From the NCBI GenBank assembly GCA_030835085.1, contig JAUQWQ010000175.1:1-45818 (forward strand): 45,818 nt of DNA. Reading direction: 5' to 3'. Shown piece by piece: positions 22,483-45,818 of the stretch. Below the pieces are notes generated by a model. The model worked only from the letters and a program-made list of their open reading frames with translations. It did no database searches and was not told the DNA's origin. The first letter of the stretch is position 1, and each line of letters starts with the position of its first letter. This stretch comes from Ignavibacteria bacterium. Its GTDB lineage: Bacteria; Bacteroidota; Ignavibacteria; Tepidaquicellales; OLB5. The position numbers and the translations under genes are program-made.

Positions 22483-23979
22483 TTAATCCCTCACCTTCAT
22501 CTCACTAAGTACTCCTTCGCTTTTTGCAAGTACAACGCTTGCCATTGTATCGCCAATTACATTTACAGTTGAGCGGCACATGTTGATCAGCCTATCCACA
22601 CCAACAATTAATGCAATGCCTTCAACAGGCAGACCCACTGCATTTAATACAACTACAAGCATGATCAGTCCCGCACCCGCAACGGGTGCTGTTGCCGCCC
22701 CGGTGATCACACATGTGATAAAAATTGTAAATTGCTGCGCAAGGCTGAGGTCAAAACCATAAACCTGCGCTATAAAGATAGCGGCTACTGCCTGGTATAA
22801 TGCAGTACCATCTTTATTTATTGTTGTGCCAATTGGCAAAACAAAAGCTGCGATCTTATTCGGGACGCCAAGCCTGTTTTCGGTTACATCAATTGTAACA
22901 GGCAGAGTTGCCGAGGATGAACTTGTTGTGAATGCAACTGCCATTACCTGCTTTTGCGCCAGGAAAAAATCGATCGGTGAAACTTTGCCAAATACTTTTA
23001 CCAATGCCGGATAAAGCACAAAGCCCACGATCAATAAAGCAAGCAGGCATGTTAACGCATACCAAAATAGCGTCCCCAGTATACTGAATCCGAATTCCGC
23101 AACAGTTGCCGAAATTAACGCGAACACCGCCAGCGGAGCCATCAGTATTACTTTTTCTACAAGCTTTATCATTGCCTCTGATACTCCTTCAAAAAATGCT
23201 ATCACTGGCTTTGCACGTTCTTTGGGAATATAGCAAAGAACAAGTCCGGTAAGGATAGCATAAAACACTATTTGAAGGAAGTCACCTTCAGCCAGTCCGC
23301 GAAACGGATTTTTAGGAACAATATTCACCAGGAATTCAACCAGGTCCATTTTATATTCCTGCTGCAGGGGAGCTTTAACTTCATCCCTGTATGCTTCAAC
23401 AAGGTGTGTTTTCGCTTCAGGCGTCATATGCATTCCGGGCTGAATGACAATAGTAAGTACCTGTGCCAAAGCAACTGATATTGCCGCTGTGAACAGGAAG
23501 AGCACCAGCAGCTTACCGCCAAGTTTTGCAAGATGCTTAACATCATGCAGCGAAGCTGCGCCAACAATCAGTGATGCAAGTACTAATGGGACTGCTATCA
23601 TATTCAAGAGCCGTATAAATATTTCTCCAACAGGCTTAATATCTGCCCCAATTGAACTTGTTTTATTTATGGATGTTATATTTTCGTAAGTATGGATCTC
23701 ACCTGAAGCAGGGAAAACAACATTTATCCTTACACCTTCGGTTTTCTTATCTTTCTTTAAGGATTCAAAATAGCGTACAACACCTGATTGTGAAGTTTCA
23801 TTAAAACTTATCAAAACTGAATCACCCTTTAAAAATGTTACCTGCTGCCAGTTTTTTATTTCGGTCTCATTACTGCCTGATATCACCAGCAGGCTGTTGT
23901 GGTCAACATTAAAAATTGCACCGAAGGCAATTCCCAAAATAAAGCCAATTAAGATTTGTATGTGAAGTTTTATTTTCAA
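22483..23979 (-). CDS. DAACS-family symporter with extracytoplasmic insert and NKDGT motif
   Basis: A 498-residue cation/dicarboxylate or amino-acid symporter (SLC1/GltP type), read from TTG. It keeps the serine-rich HP1 TTSSSSATLP (351-360). The TM7 motif reads NKDGT (388-392) instead of the common NMDGT; Met in this motif contributes to the Na+ site, so coupling may differ. Between TM1 and TM2 there is an insert of about 85 residues (about 25-112), much longer than in GltPh. The P-type ATPase gene ends 11 nt upstream, so the two form an operon. A paralog lies at 27143-28648 with NMDGT intact. Substrate unknown: acidic amino acids or C4-dicarboxylates. Confidence 0.9.
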   Translation of the reverse strand: MKIKLHIQILIGFILGIAFGAIFNVDHNSLLVISGSNETEIKNWQQVTFLKGDSVLISFNETSQSGVVRYFESLKKDKKTEGVRINVVFPASGEIHTYENITSINKTSSIGADIKPVGEIFIRLLNMIAVPLVLASLIVGAASLHDVKHLAKLGGKLLVLFLFTAAISVALAQVLTIVIQPGMHMTPEAKTHLVEAYRDEVKAPLQQEYKMDLVEFLVNIVPKNPFRGLAEGDFLQIVFYAILTGLVLCYIPKERAKPVIAFFEGVSEAMIKLVEKVILMAPLAVFALISATVAEFGFSILGTLFWYALTCLLALLIVGFVLYPALVKVFGKVSPIDFFLAQKQVMAVAFTTSSSSATLPVTIDVTENRLGVPNKIAAFVLPIGTTINKDGTALYQAVAAIFIAQVYGFDLSLAQQFTIFITCVITGAATAPVAGAGLIMLVVVLNAVGLPVEGIALIVGVDRLINMCRSTVNVIGDTMASVVLAKSEGVLSEMKVRD

Positions 23980-26408: not shown

Positions 26409-26419
26409 ATTTTTTTTAA

Positions 26420-26474
26420 GTCAAAAGGCAAAAGTGATTTAATTCTGTCAAAAGGCAAAAGTGAAAAGGCAAAA
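26420..26474 (+). repeat. GGCAAAAG repeats, left side of the four-helix-bundle cassette
   Basis: Two copies of GTCAAAAGGCAAAAGTGA (26420-26437 and 26447-26464) followed by AAAAGGCAAAA (26464-26474). The stretch AAGGCAAAAGTGAAAAGGCA is matched, in inverted orientation and with one difference, by the array at 26961-27140 on the other side of the gene. Confidence 0.8.
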
Positions 26475-26514
26475 AAATGATATTAAAAGAATTTATACCC
26501 AATTAATCAAAAGT

Positions 26515-26870
26515 CTATTTTGTGTTGTTTATCATTGCTGTTAACAATGCAAAGACATTGTTCAATTCTGCATCTAAGTCAATTAATTCGTCTTCTTTGA
26601 AATATTCCAACAGTTTGCATATTCCATTTGTGTATCAATTTCAACCGAAGAGGATCTTGATATTTCGTAAAATCTTTTTCTGTCATTTACTGATTTTCGG
26701 GAAGCGCCTTCTGCAATATTAGATGCTACAGAAATTGATGCTCTTCTGAGTTGTGATGTTAATATGTATTTTTCTTCCTTTGGCAGCTTGTTTGTAAGCT
26801 TATATACCTCCTTTATGAGTCTCAAACTTTTATCCCAAACCGCCAGCTTTTTATGATTAAGTTTTAACAT
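26515..26870 (-). pseudogene. Four-helix-bundle (S23, 23S-IVS type) gene with a frameshift
   Basis: The minus-strand frame from ATG 26870 gives the S23 core: KKLAVWDKSLRLIKEVYKLTNKLPKEEKYILTSQLRRASISVASNIAEGASRK, then FYEISRSSSVEIDTQME. After GAATATGC the frame runs into a stop at about 26583 (95 aa). One extra base there would restore EICKLLEYFKEDELIDLDAELNNVFA and on to TAMINNTK, ending at a TAG at 26515-26517, a full-length protein of about 118 aa. So a one-base loss in the A-run (GAAAT to GAAT) has broken it, or it is a read error. The family is known from 23S rRNA intervening sequences and stand-alone genes; function not settled. It is flanked by inverted repeats. Confidence 0.85.
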
Positions 26871-26960
26871 ATTATTAAGATTTTATTTATTTATTACAGA
26901 TGGTTTATTTCCTTTGGATTTTTCTAATTGTTACTTTGCTTTTTATTTTTTGATTCTATT

Positions 26961-27140
26961 TGTTGCCTTTTGCCTTTTTACTTTTGCCTTAAATGCTTTT
27001 GCTTCTCTTTTTGCCTTTTGCATTTTTACATTTGCCTTAGATGTTCTTTTTCTTCTTTTTTTGCCTTCTGCCTTTTTACTTTTGCCTTAAATGCTATTTC
27101 GCTTCTCTTTTTGCCTTTTGCCTTTTTACTTTTGCCTTAA
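26961..27140 (+). repeat. Four-copy ~50 bp tandem repeat
   Basis: Copies begin with TTGCCTT at 26963, 27011, 27061 and 27111 (steps of 48, 50 and 50 nt); each has the core TTTGC[CA]TTTTTAC[TA]TTTGCCTTA, then a variable AAATGCTTTTGCTTCTC-like tail. The last copy is partial and stops beside the symporter stop codon. There are no unique spacers, so it is not a CRISPR array. Confidence 0.9.
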
Positions 27141-44750: not shown

Positions 44751-45818
44751 TTATTTTATCAACAACATCTTCTTTGTTTCTGCAAATACCTCCTTTCCGG
44801 AAGTCACTGTTAATTTGTAAAAAAATACACCTGATGCGTATTTACTTCCATCAAAATCTACCTTATATATTCCTGCATTCTGTTTTTGATTTATAAGCAT
44901 TTTTAAACTTCTGCCAACTATATCATATACTTCCAAATTAACATATGAATTGTTCTTTGATATTTGGTATTTGATATTTGTAGTTGGGTTGAATGGATTC
45001 GGGTAATTCTGAAATAACATAAACTCCTTTGGTACTTCACTGCTAATTTGCTGCAATCCTGTTATAAAAGTTGTATCTCCTCCATTGGTTGTATGGATAC
45101 CGCCGTTTGAATTGTATGCCCAGCCTATTCTTTTATTTATAAACTGTACATGTGAGTATGCTGCTAAATGTATAGTTGTATCAGGTACATTAAATAACCA
45201 GTTATTACCGCCGTTTGTTGTGCGGAATAAGATCCCCCTGAACTGCCCTGCACCATAAAATGCTTCTCCGCCGGCTGCCCAAACAGTATCACTATTCAAA
45301 ATTGAAATACTTGAAACCGCCGCAGAAAGTATTATCCCGCCAGTGGGTAATACCTGGTTAAACCAGTTCAATCCGCCATTTGTGGTTTTATCAAAATATG
45401 GTGTCCCGTTTATATTACTGCATTTCCAGCCTGTTAATGTATCAACTAATTTCATATCTGTAAAACCTGTTGTACCCGTTATTATATTCCAGTTCAATCC
45501 TCCATTCGTTGTTTTATATAAAAAAGTATTTCCTCTGCTGCTAAAACCTATTCTGCTGTTATACATATATATCTTATCAGGCTTTATGGTATTATTCACA
45601 ATCCAGTTTGTACCGCCGTTAGTGGTCTTAAATACGCCGCCTGTTAGATTTTCTGATTCTACTAACCAAATAGTATCATTATTTAACACACTCATATCAT
45701 CCCATTTTTCTGCCGAAGGACTATTTACTAAAAACCAATTTAAACCTGCGTTAGTGGTTTTACTTAAATAAGTCGTCCCTCCCCCGCTTCCCCCGCAAGC
45801 ATAACCTGTATTTATATT
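44751..45818 (-). CDS. T9SS-secreted Ycf48/BNR-repeat protein, 5' end cut by window
   Basis: The minus-strand frame is open to the window edge; 355 residues are visible and the start lies outside. An ATG at 45695 is not the start because the same repeats continue upstream (LSKTTNAGLNWFLVNSPS). The body repeats TTNGGTNWIVNN, KTTNGGLNWNIITG and FRTTNGGNNWLF (photosystem II assembly factor Ycf48/BNR-like propeller). The T9SS C-terminal domain starts near LFQNYPNPFNPTTNIKYQI and ends KKMLLIK. Fifth T9SS cargo in the window; function unknown. Confidence 0.87.
   Translation of the reverse strand, partial: NINTGYACGGSGGGTTYLSKTTNAGLNWFLVNSPSAEKWDDMSVLNNDTIWLVESENLTGGVFKTTNGGTNWIVNNTIKPDKIYMYNSRIGFSSRGNTFLYKTTNGGLNWNIITGTTGFTDMKLVDTLTGWKCSNINGTPYFDKTTNGGLNWFNQVLPTGGIILSAAVSSISILNSDTVWAAGGEAFYGAGQFRGILFRTTNGGNNWLFNVPDTTIHLAAYSHVQFINKRIGWAYNSNGGIHTTNGGDTTFITGLQQISSEVPKEFMLFQNYPNPFNPTTNIKYQISKNNSYVNLEVYDIVGRSLKMLINQKQNAGIYKVDFDGSKYASGVFFYKLTVTSGKEVFAETKKMLLIK

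Follow-up and report, generated by a model that had tools for sequence, protein, structure and literature searches.

The S23 gene of the analysed stretch of DNA (hereafter the window; 45,818 nt, contig C87 of a 4.05-Mb Ignavibacteria genome) is enclosed by inverted arrays of a tandem heptamer, and an S23 gene inside inverted heptamer arms is a general pattern of which the window is one case. We consider it probable, at roughly 60%, that the window contains a copy of a two-part, widespread system resembling REPIN-RAYT, in which the S23 protein would act as the driver by binding the heptamers and promoting their copying. S23 genes are known as genes of obscure function within rRNA intervening sequences; heptamer arrays have been reported separately and left unexplained.

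The S23 gene of the window (26515..26870, minus strand) matches the PF05635 profile at 1.3e-28, and its score of 99.8 bits, against a curated cut-off of 33.8, places it in the family. The open frame spans 26583-26870 on the minus strand (95 aa); past it, family similarity shifts to a different reading frame and ends with the stop codon at 26515-26517. Near 26620 the gene lacks one base relative to the ortholog of G005, the nearest congener, whose SDF symporter is 97% identical to that of the window. This agrees with the one-base frameshift noticed from the sequence alone and refines its position from about 26600. Because the orthologs in five congeners (G003, G005, G007, G008 and G010) are intact, it is either recent or an assembly error.

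Both neighbouring genes are co-directional with the S23 gene on the minus strand. An SDF symporter (PF00375; 27143..28648) lies directly upstream of the unit, and a P-type ATPase (PF00122, PF00702; 23991..26408) directly downstream. The gene had been described as sitting between duplicated symporters, which holds for one side; on the other side the neighbour is the ATPase, and the second SDF symporter (22483-23979, 57% identical to the first) lies beyond it.

The gene-upstream arm (26959..27138, minus strand) consists of GGCAAAA/GTRAAAA heptamers, as read on the minus strand, and is arranged in four copies of about 50 bp with a copy spacing of 48/50/50 (TRF score 282). The gene-downstream arm (26418..26474, plus strand) has the opposite orientation and contains three CAAAAGGCAAAA copies. 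The complementary ends are able to form a stem: positions 26452-26474 pair with two stretches of the upstream arm, 26968-26990 and 27116-27138 (23 nt, 96%). The inverted-flank score of the window is 41, compared to 21.2 +/- 2.8 (maximum 38) for 1000 dinucleotide shuffles, none of which reaches 41, and this confirms the inverted repeats that the sequence-only reading had seen around the gene. The basic repeat of both arms is the tandem heptamer, and the 50-bp unit is a later duplication of one arm. The 50-bp amplification was seen otherwise only in G005; the 4 x 50 bp array that had been highlighted earlier is thus real, but as a lineage-specific feature it does not define the element. The earlier reading missed the 7-nt period, the locus-specific units and the scattered copies, and also that S23 has the direction of the gene it follows. 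Another period-7 stretch in the window (44946-44985) lies inside the gene of a T9SS-tail protein and was read as coding sequence, not as an array.

Inverted repeats of short period enclose all six S23 genes of the window genome, and the unit differs from gene to gene (GGTGAGTAG-type, GTGAAAT, TAGTTGA/TAGTTTA, GGCAAAA, CAAATAG and TGTCAAA). The PF05635 domain is present in 52 of 59 relatives, and the search of S23 genes in the genome and its relatives, which had been proposed as a check, found the same kind of flanking repeats. We scored the best alignment between the 300-nt upstream flank and the reverse complement of the downstream flank at 113 loci with sufficient flank from the window genome and its relatives; these genomes are related and do not represent independent data. 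The median score is 41 in the inverted orientation, compared to 19 both in the direct orientation and for flanks exchanged between loci. A score of at least 36 is reached by 64% of inverted, 6% of direct and 2.4% of swapped flanks, and by 0.6% of 335 genes that served as controls, taken from the window and from 20 stretches of 20 kb in relatives. When each locus is compared with shuffles of its flanks, 97 of the 113 are above z = 3. Self-identity of the arms is 0.58 at lag 7, 0.54 at lag 14 and 0.49 at lag 21, compared to 0.25 at lag 7 in the neighbouring sequence, and the gene-upstream arms contain 587 G and 185 C.

The pattern extends to a cross-phylum set of 80 named S23 loci from a genome collection, which includes Gemmatimonadota, Acidobacteria, Clostridia, Patescibacteria, Kiritimatiellae, Proteobacteria and Bacteroidota. 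Inverted scores of at least 34 are found in 40% of the 77 loci with sufficient flank, compared to 9% in the direct orientation, and the arms have lag peaks at 7, 14 and 21, with smaller ones at 8, 16 and 24. An 8-nt unit replaces the 7-nt unit in some Bacteroidota S23 arms (L186, L197, L204, L214 and L231; e.g. AGTAGCTG, CAAAGGTT). High direct-orientation flank scores around S23 at two loci (L163, 112; L228, 136) point to another arrangement or to duplicated flanks.

The resemblance to 23S rRNA intervening sequences, proposed from the plan of the window unit, is supported. Intervening sequences such as those of Coxiella and Leptospira also contain an S23 gene and inverted ends, and that of Coxiella has terminal inverted repeats with tandem heptamers just upstream of the S23 gene (PMC4990558). 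The units described here differ from them in lying between protein genes, as at the symporter-ATPase junction of the window; none of the S23 loci scanned was found inside 23S rRNA, by the presence of at least two of 15 23S motifs. The shared stem plan and heptamers, and the co-directional position between genes, would suit an RNA-processing unit, in which the arms pair in a polycistronic transcript and an RNase III cut frees the S23 message, the scattered arrays being unrelated. Selection on RNA pairing is not visible in the arms, since their mismatches show no excess of G-U over A-C (74 vs 78), and we rejected RNA pairing as a selected property of the arms. As RNA processing also leaves unexplained why scattered arrays share the arm unit, we regard it as improbable.

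The S23 gene and its heptamer unit travel together. Among 78 elements, and with pairs excluded whose flanking ORFs are detectably homologous, the arms of two elements are the more alike the higher the identity of their S23 proteins (Mantel r 0.28, null sd 0.024; 0 of 2000 permutations). In the groups examined, mostly the same units form scattered arrays elsewhere in the genome, as we found in genome-wide scans with sequence patterns and in 20-kb stretches. In 400 kb of DNA from the Ignavibacteria relatives, eight period-7 arrays were found, compared to 0-2 for periods 5, 6 and 8-11. The window unit has 31 matches with at most two mismatches in its own genome, compared to none for the backwards control; congeners without the GGCAAAA element at the symporter-ATPase junction have 1-13 matches and those with it 6-35. 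Some solo arrays in G009 and G012 are built of CAATTAA/CAATGAG, and the prediction of such arms for S23 genes of these genomes not yet seen held (L249-L252). A CAATTAA/CAATGAG foldback without a gene, with a spacer of 31 nt, is located at L118:7306-7413 in G009 and matches the arms of the S23 gene at L249. Another array, of GGCAAAA, occurs apparently in frame within a methyltransferase-like ORF of G011 (L309, about 1500-1545); the reading frame is kept because three heptamers make 21 nt.

The link between arms and scattered arrays was further examined in Xanthomonadaceae, where S23 is present in 54 of 119 genomes; these genomes are related and the statistics do not rest on independent data. 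In many of them the S23 gene lies between apparent accB and accC genes (named by sequence inspection) and has GGGAATC or GGGATTC arms. Doublets of GGGAWTC, counted with overlaps within arrays, number 144, 44, 85 and 95 in four genomes of the accB-accC type and 0 in four unrelated S23 genomes. Genomes with GGGACTC/GGGACCC arms contain the predicted GGGACYC doublets (249 in G149, 218 in G122, 151 in G150 and 44 in G175). More than 50 GGGAWTC matches are found in 27 of 54 S23-positive genomes and in one of 65 S23-negative ones. Among the 54 S23-positive genomes, those with GGGAWTC arms have a median of 154 matches to GGGAWTC, compared to 3 in the others (p 7e-7), and those with GGGACYC arms a median of 173 matches to GGGACYC, compared to 0 (p 8e-6).

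In the reverse direction, the counts of genomes were used to predict arms still unseen. This prediction, recorded beforehand, held for 12 of 15 GGGAWTC and one of two GGGACYC genomes. Among the genomes expected to have other units, G100 (five loci), G103, G069, G090 and G095 agreed with the expectation, as did one of the two loci of G182 but not the other; the misses are G073 and this second locus of G182, together with G080, G152 and G085 by the strict criterion. S23 presence and arrays do not correspond one to one. Only 5-6 scattered matches accompany the GGGAWTC arms of G104 and G182, and seven S23-positive genomes have at least 50 GGGAWTC matches (e.g. 229 in G160) yet satisfy the strict arm criterion, which missed near units, for neither scanned unit. 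The S23-negative genomes G070 (98) and G170 (88) retain arrays. For the 98 GGGACTC doublets of G070, which has no S23 match, the gene could have been lost or missed by the assembly, or arrays may persist without S23. In G099 the backwards control pattern CYCAGGG gave 87 matches, being the unit of this genome's own S23 arms (AGGGCTC).

The GGGAATC repeats of Xanthomonas were published without an explanation; they include 70-75 convergent inverted pairs, and S23 is absent from the text of the paper (PMC4692102). Their unit is that of the Xanthomonadaceae S23 arms. S23 is mentioned in neither of the two papers on heptameric arrays, of which this is one. Other heptameric arrays are those of Nostoc (GGGGATT/GGGGACT) and Beggiatoaceae (TAACTGA). 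The polarity of the published pairs recurs in G061: its array pairs within 300 nt are all convergent (15, with 0 divergent), have spacers of 24-98 nt and show the polarity of S23 arms. One G061 foldback lies between the stop of pheS and the start of pheT (names by sequence inspection); it is absent in two relatives with 92% identical pheT, and the distant G187 has a similar, partly decayed copy.

Heptamer arrays could arise by replication slippage alone, with S23 units merely landing in or next to them. Such an origin would agree with the fast change of array length between congeners, including the 50-bp amplification, and with the arrays of some S23-negative genomes, but it does not account for arms that are inverted rather than direct around the gene, for a unit predicted by S23 subfamily at unrelated sites, or for the concentration of arrays in S23-positive genomes. 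We therefore consider slippage as the sole cause very improbable.

Comparison of filled and empty sites, suggested earlier as a check, was made at the symporter-ATPase junction in 12 genomes of the genus. The GGCAAAA element is present in seven, including the window genome (G000, G003, G005, G007, G008, G010 and G011). In G004 and G006 the junction is unoccupied and only a few bases separate the symporter stop from the ATPase start, and G002, G009 and G012 carry a solo AAATGCC/AAATGTC array without S23. These solo arrays (L140, L141 and L142, in G009, G002 and G012, respectively) resemble the TGTCAAA arms of L006. Other S23 genes carry such repeats and empty alleles exist, so neither of the two outcomes that would have spoken against the mobile unit of the sequence-only reading was found, and presence and absence at the same site in congeners support it. 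No target-site duplication is visible where filled and empty junctions were compared at two sites (symporter-ATPase and pheS-pheT); at both, the spacer is replaced in the filled junction and no clean boundary is seen. The orientation of the units is biased: the gene upstream of S23 is co-directional at 113 of 114 loci (63 of 74 across phyla) and the gene downstream at 91 of 108 (64 of 74 across phyla).

S23 is under strong purifying selection. Orthologous pairs with computable dS have dN/dS of 0.01-0.13, and three saturated pairs have a crude pN/pS of 0.17-0.23; decay, suggested by the frameshift in the window, is not supported as the typical state of these genes. Such selection also fits a host function, and S23 could be a nucleic-acid-binding regulator or structuring protein that serves the host, the scattered arrays being its operators or binding sites and the arms autoregulating the gene. 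This would be in line with the low dN/dS, with orthologous S23 loci retained at one site across the genus, and with an arm unit common to the scattered arrays. The patchy presence of S23 in Xanthomonadaceae (54/119), the several S23 genes per genome with differing units, the site empty in close relatives and the array sites polymorphic between relatives argue against it, and we hold a regulator of this kind to be unlikely.

The units could, alternatively, be non-autonomous and moved in trans by another enzyme, such as an IS200/RAYT-type transposase or a reverse transcriptase, with S23 as a passenger or accessory. S23 has no enzymatic domain, and Avd of diversity-generating retroelements, which is structurally related to PF05635 proteins, partners a reverse transcriptase (PMC10053308); in the literature on nucleic-acid binding by Avd we found nothing usable. 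Among 19 S23-positive genomes tested, however, RVT_1 is absent from 12, which sets the S23 units apart from diversity-generating retroelements. Y1_Tnp is present in 16 and absent from G028, G086 and G160, the last two being rich in arrays (328 and 229 array matches, respectively). We rejected the RVT_1 reverse transcriptase and the Y1 transposase as necessary partners: neither of these two families looks necessary, recent loss being possible. Mobilisation in trans has little probability in our view.

In the reading that we prefer, the first part of the system would be a driver copy, that is, an S23 gene framed by inverted arrays of an element-specific heptamer and inserted after one gene's stop codon, ahead of the start of the following gene; from this position the unit would be readable through from the upstream gene. 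The second part would be the arrays of this unit that lie scattered in the genome; often these are short convergent pairs that enclose nothing, and they resemble derivatives from which S23 has been deleted. The S23 protein may recognise its own heptamer, and the likeliest target would be the hairpin folded back from the two inverted arms, as single-stranded DNA or read-through RNA. We speculate that S23 promotes the copying of this hairpin into new stop-start junctions via host replication or repair, to which the copying step is ascribed because S23 has no catalytic domain; slippage and recombination could then change how many repeats there are and make the unit uniform across a genome. A solved S23 relative, 2gsc, identified as such by a sequence match, is a homopentamer according to a passage in PMC4990558 that cites Lin 2006. 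Binding of the heptamers by S23, the hairpin as substrate and the copying step are inferences from genome sequences.

In REPIN-RAYT systems a conserved protein gene has short inverted repeats beside it, and further copies of these repeats are dispersed as inverted doublets (PMC3116915). The S23 gene is likewise flanked by a repeat that is also scattered as inverted doublets, with exceptions (G070, G170, G104 and G182). It does not belong to REPIN-RAYT because the transposase is lacking: the gene is of the PF05635 family without a Y1/HUH transposase domain, and S23-positive genomes such as G028, G086 and G160 have no Y1_Tnp match. Moreover, the repeats are tandem heptamers and not REP palindromes, and several S23 genes with different units coexist in a genome. 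Foldback elements, such as Galileo, have inverted repeats made of tandem units. The S23 units resemble these elements and MITEs in their terminal inverted repeats of tandem units and in the short gene-less versions, and differ from them in the lack of a transposase gene and in a 7-nt unit that differs between elements; no target-site duplication was seen at the two sites compared.

Among openly licensed papers, the search for a link between S23 and heptamers found only that on the Coxiella intervening sequence, and a paper may exist elsewhere. The S23-heptamer system fits none of the known systems compared, no openly licensed paper was found that connects S23 with the heptamer arrays, and its mechanism is a proposal. 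We suggest tentatively, at somewhat less than even odds, that it represents a new class of intragenomic repeat system, in which a non-enzymatic pentameric S23 protein spreads and maintains its own tandem-heptamer foldbacks, explaining much of the unexplained excess of heptamers in bacterial genomes. Linking S23 with heptamer arrays gives the protein a partner testable in vitro and the arrays a reason for occurring as convergent pairs, and it suggests that repeats could spread with no transposase of their own. The rRNA intervening sequences would likewise gain an origin open to testing, as S23 units that landed in 23S helices.

A 236-aa lipoprotein-like gene that is not S23 was found inside inverted repeats in G009 (L118:11100-12120, score 79), which include the heptamer GTGAAAA and a second, palindromic repeat (TGAAATC...GGATGCC); judging from this case, the arms may carry cargo other than S23.
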